DNA from: Candidatus Neomarinimicrobiota bacterium
Lineage (GTDB): Bacteria; Fidelibacterota; Marinisomatia; SCGC-AAA003-L08; TS1B11
Assembly (NCBI GenBank): GCA_022560655.1
Contig: JADFSS010000009.1
Coordinates: forward strand, 1-49,781
Length of the DNA: 49,781 nucleotides
Reading direction: 5' to 3'
Shown in pieces: positions 15,432 through 18,644 of the stretch; the first letter of the stretch is position 1, and the number at the start of each line of letters is the position of its first letter. A program made the position numbers and the translations under genes. Below the pieces are notes generated by a model, which made no database searches, was not told where the DNA came from, and saw only the letters and a list, made by a program, of their open reading frames with translations.

Positions 15432-16202
15432 CTAGTCCTTGATGCGGTAGCCCCTGGCAAACAGGCCGGCCCCAATCAGCGTAAACAGAGCAGCGGCCGA
15501 TATGCTCACCAGCAGCGACCACCAGGGGGAGGTATCGGAGACCCCCAGCACGGCGTAGCGCAGGCCATTCACCATATAGTAGAGGGGGTTAAGCAATGAA
15601 ATATTTCGCCATGCCGCGGGCAGCATATCAATGCTGTAGAATACACCTCCCAGGAAAACCAGCGGGGTGAGGAAAAAGTTCACCAGTAGCTGGATATGAT
15701 CCCAGGTCTTGGCAAAGATACCCACCAGCAGTCCGGCGCCGCCAAAGGCCCAGCCAACCACCAGCAGAAACGCCAACGCCAGCACCGGATGTTCGATGGG
15801 CATATCAGTGAGCAACATTCCCACCAGCAGCACCAATATACCGTTGATCAGCCCCCTGGCGGCTCCACCAAGAATATAACCCAGCGAAACCTCCAAGCCG
15901 CTGAGGGGCGTAATCAGAATGTCATCCAGAAATCGCATGATTTTGGCCTGGAACAGGCTGGAGGCGCTGTTGGAGTAGGCGTTGGTAATAACATTCATCA
16001 TAGCCAGACCGGGGATAATGTAGGTCATGTAGGGCACTTCCTTGATGTCGCCGATGCGGCTACCAAGGGACTTGCCGAAGACCACAATGTAGAGCACGGT
16101 GGTGAGCAAGCCGGGCAGGATAGTCTGATTATACAGCGACAGAAACCGCCGCAGTTCGCGGGCGACAAAGGTAAGAAAGCCGACCCTATTGCTCGAGGCC
16201 AT
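15432..16202 (-). CDS. ABC-2 type exporter permease
   Basis: A 256-residue integral membrane protein of the ABC-2 family (DrrB/NodJ/YadH-like) with about six hydrophobic helices and the family region LNPLYYMVNGLRYAVLG near the C-terminus. The frame is open much further upstream, but that extension overlaps the ATPase gene and is not membrane-like; the ATG at 16202 gives the usual start before VGFLTFVARELRRF. It overlaps the ATPase gene by 17 bases, typical of coupled ABC pairs. Likely exports a lipid, polysaccharide or drug; the substrate cannot be read from sequence. Confidence 0.92.
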   Translation of the reverse strand: MASSNRVGFLTFVARELRRFLSLYNQTILPGLLTTVLYIVVFGKSLGSRIGDIKEVPYMTYIIPGLAMMNVITNAYSNSASSLFQAKIMRFLDDILITPLSGLEVSLGYILGGAARGLINGILVLLVGMLLTDMPIEHPVLALAFLLVVGWAFGGAGLLVGIFAKTWDHIQLLVNFFLTPLVFLGGVFYSIDMLPAAWRNISLLNPLYYMVNGLRYAVLGVSDTSPWWSLLVSISAAALFTLIGAGLFARGYRIKD

Positions 16203-17112
16203 GCCCGGTAAGCTTGATAAACACGTCCTCCAGCGTGCTGTGAAAGATGGTGGCGTCCTGGACCACGGCACCTGCTGAAGTGACGCGGCCAATAATGTCT
16301 GACAAGCGCAGCTCCGGCCGGGGGGTGAACACCCGCAACTGGCCGTTCTGGTAGTTGTAAGTGTAGCCATCCAGAGCCTGCTCGACCACCTCGCTGAGCC
16401 CTTCCACAGCCAGCGTTAGCCCGTCATTGTTCATCCCCGCCACCAGCTCCGCCGGTGTCCCAATCTTGACGATAAGCCCCTCATCGATGATGGCTACACG
16501 TTGGCAGAGCTTCTCCGCCTCCTCAATGTAATGGGTCGTGAGAATGATGGTAATCCCCTCCTCATTGAGCCGCGTCAGGTAGTCCCACAGCATATGCCGG
16601 AGGCTCACGTCCACGCCGGCTGTGGGCTCGTCCAATATGAGAATTTGCGGGTCGTGTACCATCGAGCGGGCGATTTGGAAGCGCCGCTTCATGCCGCCGC
16701 TGAGCTCCCGAGGCTTGACCCGACGCTTGGCGGTAAGCCCGAATAAATCCAGCAGGCGATCCGAGTTCTGCTTGGCGGTTTCCTTGCTCACACCGTAGTA
16801 GCCGGCCTGCAGCAGCATCAAATCCTCGATGGCGAAGAACCAGTCGAAGTTGAGCTCCTGAGCGGCCAGGCCAATGAGCCGCCGGGCCTGCCTGAACTCC
16901 CGCACCACGTCGTGGCCCATCACGCTAACCGAGCCGGCCGACGGCCGCACCAGGCCGGTGGTAATCCCGATGGCGGTGGTCTTGCCGGCGCCGTTGGGGC
17001 CCAGCAGGCCGAAAAACTCGCCCTGCGGAACGGTGAGGTCGATCCCCTTGAGCGCCTCTACGCCACCCCGGTAGCGCTTGCGCAGACCCCGTATTTCCAG
17101 AGCCGGGGTCAG
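16186..17112 (-). CDS. ABC transporter ATP-binding protein, apparently CTG-initiated
   Basis: Full-length ATPase of 308 residues, partner of the following permease. Numbered from the CTG at 17112, it has Walker A GPNGAGKTT (38-46), signature LSGG (137-140), Walker B LILDEP with Asp161-Glu162, and the switch His in LTTHY. A C-terminal DrrA-like extension follows. In this frame there is no ATG, GTG or TTG between the stop of the preceding gene (17118-17116) and a GTG at 16950, which lies after Walker A. The CTG at 17112 gives the family-like start MTPALEIRGLRKRY, and GGAG (17125-17122) sits 9 bases upstream. A start at 16950 would give a non-functional protein. Confidence 0.85.
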   Translation of the reverse strand: MTPALEIRGLRKRYRGGVEALKGIDLTVPQGEFFGLLGPNGAGKTTAIGITTGLVRPSAGSVSVMGHDVVREFRQARRLIGLAAQELNFDWFFAIEDLMLLQAGYYGVSKETAKQNSDRLLDLFGLTAKRRVKPRELSGGMKRRFQIARSMVHDPQILILDEPTAGVDVSLRHMLWDYLTRLNEEGITIILTTHYIEEAEKLCQRVAIIDEGLIVKIGTPAELVAGMNNDGLTLAVEGLSEVVEQALDGYTYNYQNGQLRVFTPRPELRLSDIIGRVTSAGAVVQDATIFHSTLEDVFIKLTGHGLEQ

Positions 17113-17115
17113 GAC

Positions 17116-18567
17116 CTAGCGCTCCAGCACACAGATATTCTCTATATGGGGCGTGTGGGGGAACATATCCAGCGGCTGGATATGCGCCAGCCGGTAGCCC
17201 CCATCGCAGAGCACGCGCACATCGCGAACCTGGGTTGCCGGATTGCACGACACGTAGACCACCCTCGCCGCGTTCATGTTCAGGATTTCTGACAGCAGCT
17301 TGGGGTGCATACCGGCCCGGGGCGGGTCGGCTACGATAATGTCTGCCGGCGGCACCTGCTTGGCAAGCCGCCTGCCGTTTTCGCTAAAGTAGCGCGCCGA
17401 CAGGTCGGCGTGAAAAAAGCGCGCATTGGTCACTTCGTTGAGCAGGGCATTGCGGGCGGCGTCCTCAATGGCTGCGGGTACCGACTCAAAACCGGCCACT
17501 TCGCTGGCCTCCCGGGCCAGAATAAGGGCGATGGTGCCCGTGCCACAGTAAAGGTCATACACAACCTCCTGTCCGGACAGCCCCGCCGCCTGCTCAATCT
17601 GCTGGTAGAGCACCTCGGCCTGCCGGGTGTTGGTCTGGAAAAAAGAGCTGGCGGATATATCAAAGCTGAGCCCCCGCAGGCGCTCGGTAATGGTGGGCTT
17701 GCCGTGGAGCAAAATTTCACGCTCGCCGTAGGCCACGGCAGCTTTGCGGGTATTGATGGTGTTCACGATGCTGGCTATGGGGGGAAAGGCCGTGACCAGC
17801 GCGTCCACGAGCGGCTGCAGTCGTTCCGGCTGTTGCCGGGCTGTCACCAGATTGACCATCACTTCCAGGTTACCCGAACCAGCCCCCGCCGTGCGGATCA
17901 CCAAATGCCTGAGGTAGCCGGTGTGGGCCTTCACATCGTAGAATTCCAGCTTCAGCTCAAGCGACTTGGCCCGCACCAGCTGCAGAATCTCGTTGCCCAC
18001 CGGCTGCTGAATCCAGCATGCGTCGATATTCAGCACCTTGTCGAAGCGTTTTGGCACATGCAGGCCCAGAGCCGGTGGGAGGGTATCGTCCCCAACGGCA
18101 GGCTGCACCAGCCAGGGGCGCGTGGAGAAAGTAAATTCCATCTTGTTGCGGTAGTGGTAGGTCTCCTCGCTGCCGATGATGGGCTGCACCTCCGCCCCAC
18201 CAAAGCCGCCCAGCCGGTCAAAGAGGTCCTGCACCTGGGCCTGCTTCTGCTCCAACTGCTGTTCATACGGGTAGTTCTGGGTGGCGCAGCCACCGCAGAC
18301 CCCAAAGTGGGCGCACTTGGGTTGGGCTACATGGGGGGACGGCTCCAGCAGCTCCTCCACCACCGCCTCCGCAAAACCCGAGCGCCGCTTCACGATGCGC
18401 GCCCGCACCCGCTCGCCGGGCAGCGCCCGCTTCACGAACACCACAAATCCGTCGTGCCGGGCGACGCCGCCGCCGCCGTAGGCCAAGCTGTCAATCGTGA
18501 GCTCCAGCGCCTCGCCCTTTTTGGGGGGGCTGGCAGCAGTCTTTTCGATGGTGGGGGCCGCAGTCAT
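17116..18567 (-). CDS. rlmD: RlmD/TrmA-family 23S rRNA (or tRNA) m5U methyltransferase
   Basis: SAM-dependent C5-uridine methyltransferase. Numbered from the ATG at 18567, residues about 17-75 form a TRAM RNA-binding domain. Cys85, Cys91, Cys94 (CAHFGVCGGC) and Cys184 are the ligands of a [4Fe-4S] cluster. The SAM domain has DLYCGTGTIAL and DPPRAGMHP, and the nucleophile Cys441 lies in YVSCNPATQ. An earlier in-frame ATG at 18603 is possible but lacks a ribosome site, while 18567 is preceded by GGGG. The next gene, the ABC ATPase, begins essentially at its stop codon. Whether the target is 23S rRNA or tRNA cannot be decided here. Confidence 0.9.
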   Translation of the reverse strand: MTAAPTIEKTAASPPKKGEALELTIDSLAYGGGGVARHDGFVVFVKRALPGERVRARIVKRRSGFAEAVVEELLEPSPHVAQPKCAHFGVCGGCATQNYPYEQQLEQKQAQVQDLFDRLGGFGGAEVQPIIGSEETYHYRNKMEFTFSTRPWLVQPAVGDDTLPPALGLHVPKRFDKVLNIDACWIQQPVGNEILQLVRAKSLELKLEFYDVKAHTGYLRHLVIRTAGAGSGNLEVMVNLVTARQQPERLQPLVDALVTAFPPIASIVNTINTRKAAVAYGEREILLHGKPTITERLRGLSFDISASSFFQTNTRQAEVLYQQIEQAAGLSGQEVVYDLYCGTGTIALILAREASEVAGFESVPAAIEDAARNALLNEVTNARFFHADLSARYFSENGRRLAKQVPPADIIVADPPRAGMHPKLLSEILNMNAARVVYVSCNPATQVRDVRVLCDGGYRLAHIQPLDMFPHTPHIENICVLER

Positions 18568-18644
18568 GGCCCCAAAGTTACGCTGGGAATGAGTCGAAAT
18601 CATGTAGGGAGCTAACGCGCCAGTGTCTGTGCGCCGGCGATGGA

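Follow-up and report, generated by a model that had tools for sequence, protein, structure and literature searches.

A probable CTG start codon in the ATPase gene of an ABC-2 type exporter behind rlmD in a Neomarinimicrobiota genome

The ATPase gene of a putative exporter has no canonical start codon ahead of its Walker A motif, which raises the question of where its translation begins. The gene lies in the window, the whole analysed stretch of 49,781 nucleotides, which is contig C9 of a 2.33-Mb draft assembly of 128 contigs and 95% completeness. On the minus strand, it follows rlmD (17116..18603), which encodes a 23S rRNA U1939 C5-methyltransferase of 495 amino acids. The gene of the ABC-2 type transporter ATP-binding protein (16186..17112, minus strand) ends with a TAG at 16188-16186 and would encode 308 amino acids if initiated at a CTG. 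The downstream gene for an ABC transporter permease (15432..16202, minus strand) starts with an ATG at 16202, inside the 3' end of the ATPase gene. Profile searches showed matches of the ATPase to PF00005 (E 6.8e-29) and of the permease to PF01061 (E 4.8e-32) and NF011648/PRK15066 (264.7 bits, above the cut-off of 225). With this permease and an ATPase of the ABC-2 CcmA/DrrA-like kind, the pair resembles the YadGH-type ABC-2 exporters. However, the ATPase scores 275.8 against the DrrA family (TIGR01188), below the curated cut-off of 312.45, and the exporter is named by family likeness rather than by substrate.

Reading of the frame on the minus strand confirmed the start region as first described in the original prediction. 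The rlmD stop codon (TAG, 17118-17116) closes the ATPase frame on its 5' side, and no ATG, GTG or TTG was found in this frame between the TAG and Walker A (GPNGAGKT, about 17001-16978). Only past Walker A does a canonical in-frame start appear, the GTG at 16950, and the ORF that the mechanical list opens there has 254 amino acids and lacks Walker A. After the TAG, the minus strand reads GTC (17115-17113), CTG (17112-17110), ACC, CCG, GCT, CTG (17100-17098), GAA and ATA. The gap between the TAG and the first CTG is 3 nt, and a Shine-Dalgarno-like GGAG (17122..17125, minus strand) precedes this CTG with a spacing of 9 nt. Taken alone, about 35 codons without a canonical start are unremarkable. 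What goes beyond chance is that, in the alignment, the CTG falls on the column of the start codons of the family relatives.

The start codons were compared in nine close copies of the gene from eight genomes of the same family, all belonging to genera other than that of the window, after alignment of the sequences on Walker A. The ATPase shares 65-75% identity with these orthologs across nearly the entire length, and most of them show the same synteny with the ATPase gene behind rlmD. The column of the CTG at 17112-17110 holds ATG in seven of the nine (L007, L008, L037, L009, L012, L013 and L014, the last with a length difference of one codon) and GTG in the other two (L010 and L011). Beyond the family, most relatives in the order and class have ATG, GTG or TTG at the start column or within a few codons of it, with one exception (L030). 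The nearest-looking ortholog, L008, reads ctggagcgc TAG GTC ATG ACT CCA GCT GTG where the window reads ctggagcgc TAG GTC CTG ACC CCG GCT CTG, and shares the GGAG and its 9-nt spacing. The two initiation sites are thus alike except for the start codon and a few downstream changes.

Comparison of codons 2-38 of the window with those of six orthologous copies showed 12-17 synonymous and 5-10 non-synonymous differences. This excess of synonymous differences indicates purifying selection and thus a translated N-terminus, in line with the earlier observation that the CTG gives a family-like N-terminus. The selection between the CTG and Walker A also excludes a start at the GTG at 16950, which would remove Walker A together with the conserved N-terminus. 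Relatives with ATG or GTG at the position of 17112-17110 had been named beforehand as grounds for giving up the CTG. Such relatives were found in other genera, but they do not show the base of the window to be wrong; they suggest that the codon changed recently or that the base in the window is erroneous.

The best explanation, to which we assign by judgement rather than by computation a probability of about 0.72, is an intact ATPase gene with a natural CTG start at 17112-17110 that arose by a lineage-specific change from ATG or GTG. The position of the codon, the homology, the intact frame and the selection on the N-terminus are observed, and the explanation takes the base itself to be real. 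The original prediction had left the choice between initiation at the CTG and readthrough of the TAG into a methyltransferase-ATPase fusion; the former is retained, as position, Shine-Dalgarno motif and N-terminal conservation match the orthologs, while the latter is given up. The ancestral start would have been an ATG or GTG at the same position, turned into CTG by a single change of its first base to C. CTG starts are known in bacteria, as in the RepFIB rep gene (PMC11983097), and were annotated in 20 of about 85,000 genes (0.024%) according to the summary in the same paper. In further support, the genome appears to use a second non-canonical start, the ATA of infC described below. No further CTG start was seen among about 20 other orthologous gene pairs from the window and sampled stretches, an informal count on a small sample, and there is therefore no sign of CTG initiation as a habit of the genome.

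Initiation at the CTG would employ fMet-tRNA, whose anticodon can pair with just the second and third bases of CTG (PMC11497404, on an initiator tRNA variant). The GGAG inside the end of rlmD would assist initiation, as would the ribosomes that terminate 3 nt upstream, through translational coupling. Such coupling needs overlaps or very short distances, and in E. coli a lengthening to 2 nt cost 5-70% of reinitiation (PMC10666635). The 3-nt gap lies within such a short distance, making termination-reinitiation at the CTG plausible. A report of reinitiation at non-canonical codons (PMC4648390) was set aside as a comparison because it concerns Xenopus oocytes. The anti-Shine-Dalgarno sequence GGATCACCTCCTT is present in a family member (G001), where it was checked; a 16S rRNA gene was not found in the draft genome of the window. 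The initiation region (17078-17145, minus strand) has a predicted fold of -24.9 kcal/mol (z -1.93), and those of the relatives fold at -7.7 to -23.4, most of them less strongly. Expression from CTG is about 10-fold lower than from TTG (Hecht et al., as cited in PMC11983097). With a fairly structured region and a CTG, initiation would be weak, which speaks against a CTG start, and the CTG probably lowers translation of the ATPase. The predicted hairpin (GACCCCG/CGGGGUC) starts immediately where the CTG ends; that it could be opened by a ribosome completing rlmD is a weak argument.

An error of the base or the assembly at 17112, with ATG or GTG as the true codon of an ordinary gene, is judged unlikely, again by estimate and not by computation. 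All nine family orthologs carry ATG or GTG at this column, the window is one contig of a draft in 128 pieces, and natural changes to CUG are very rare: between closely related genome triplets, AUG-to-CUG was inferred in 2 of 61,358 cases and GUG-to-CUG in 1 of 5,080 (PMC5622118). However, a random error precisely at the first base of a start codon is also very rare, and the neighbouring genes are intact and free of frameshifts. Whether the CTG is natural or an error, the intact frame favours a functional ATPase gene.

Quite improbable, and drawn by analogy with the GTC start of sigR, is a CTG selected as an IF3-sensitive, low-level start that would set the dose of the exporter in this lineage. 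The non-canonical starts of sigR (GTC) and infC (ATT/ATC) have ribosome-binding sites, are repressed by IF3 and were missed by annotation (PMC5472188), and the CTG of the ATPase, likewise behind a Shine-Dalgarno-like motif, would be missed in the same way. However, the starts of sigR and infC are regulated, and that of infC is non-canonical in both E. coli and Streptomyces, whereas the family relatives of the ATPase gene all have ATG or GTG, which argues against a regulatory use of the CTG; nothing therefore points to regulation. The infC gene of the window's own genome (G000:C4 near 50656, minus strand, locus L169) also lacks ATG, GTG and TTG at the expected start and has an ATA there after AGAGGAG. 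In all family members read (L170-L175 and L177), an ATA stands at the corresponding place behind AGAGGAG or a comparable motif. The conserved ATA is consistent with the well-known autoregulation of IF3 through a non-canonical infC start (PMC5472188). Discrimination by IF3 against poor starts thus probably operates in the family and would extend to the CTG of the ATPase.

Use of another non-canonical start, either the GTC at 17115-17113 or the CTG at 17100-17098, is very doubtful. Both lie in the ATPase frame, after the TAG and before Walker A, and a GTC start is known experimentally from sigR of Streptomyces (PMC5472188), but neither is aligned with the start of the relatives. The GTC precedes the ATG of L008 and is thus merely spacer there, and the CTG at 17100 is aligned with an internal Val or Leu codon and has no GGAG at a usable spacing. 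It is highly improbable that the start codon was lost recently and that the gene, barely or not translated, has begun to decay. The low efficiency of CTG would fit such a loss, but the ATPase frame runs through 308 codons without a stop or frameshift and is conserved as in a working gene, and the overlapping permease gene is intact.

A fusion of RlmD and the ATPase of about 800 amino acids, produced by readthrough of the TAG, is scarcely credible, although the frames are in register across the rlmD stop in the window, in L008 and in L007, where the stop is TAA. This continuity is not conserved in the family: Walker A lies 98, 101, 102 or 105 nt from the rlmD stop, placing the two genes in differing frames in several relatives, which carry an ATG or GTG of their own for the ATPase. 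RlmD itself is complete at the TAG, scoring 371.4 bits against TIGR00479 (cut-off 183.55) and matching the profile through its last position (432/432) at residue 488, and the 3' end of rlmD is kept in the ortholog loci. RF1, the reader of TAG, is encoded in the genome, and TAG terminates the four consecutive genes ligA, rlmD, ATPase and permease. The fusion is therefore rejected as a functional arrangement because of the frame phase in the relatives, the completeness of RlmD and the presence of RF1. The four TAG-ended genes and RF1 likewise led to the rejection of a reassignment of TAG.

With CTG initiation as the preferred reading, a close known counterpart is the RepFIB rep gene of F-like plasmids, whose CTG start was shown by N-terminal analysis and mutation (PMC11983097), whereas that of the ATPase is read from sequence comparison. 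The rep gene serves plasmid replication and has CTG across related replicons; the ATPase gene encodes part of a transporter on the chromosome, and its CTG is confined to a single lineage. The rep gene is commonly misannotated at a downstream GTG (PMC11983097), and the same is expected for the ATPase gene at 16950. Gene callers limited to ATG, GTG and TTG would drop Walker A and present a seemingly dead ATPase, and alignment of orthologs recovers such starts in uncultured lineages. CTG starts being already known, the ATPase gene adds a probable case at an otherwise standard initiation site, and it would represent a new mechanism only if the CTG proves regulatory.

Two further loci were noted among the relatives. 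The ATPase ortholog of an order relative (L030 of G011, about 1475-1500) has no ATG, GTG or TTG at the start site, where an ATT with a GGAG upstream is found; it was not counted as a second non-canonical case, as the 55 N in the 3.9 kb of the locus make the sequence quality doubtful. The genome G009 carries two ATPase copies, L008 and L037 (C1:2971723-2972643 and C1:1577296-1578216), each behind an rlmD-like end, which may represent a duplication or a mixed assembly. The two copies differ in the phase of the rlmD stop.
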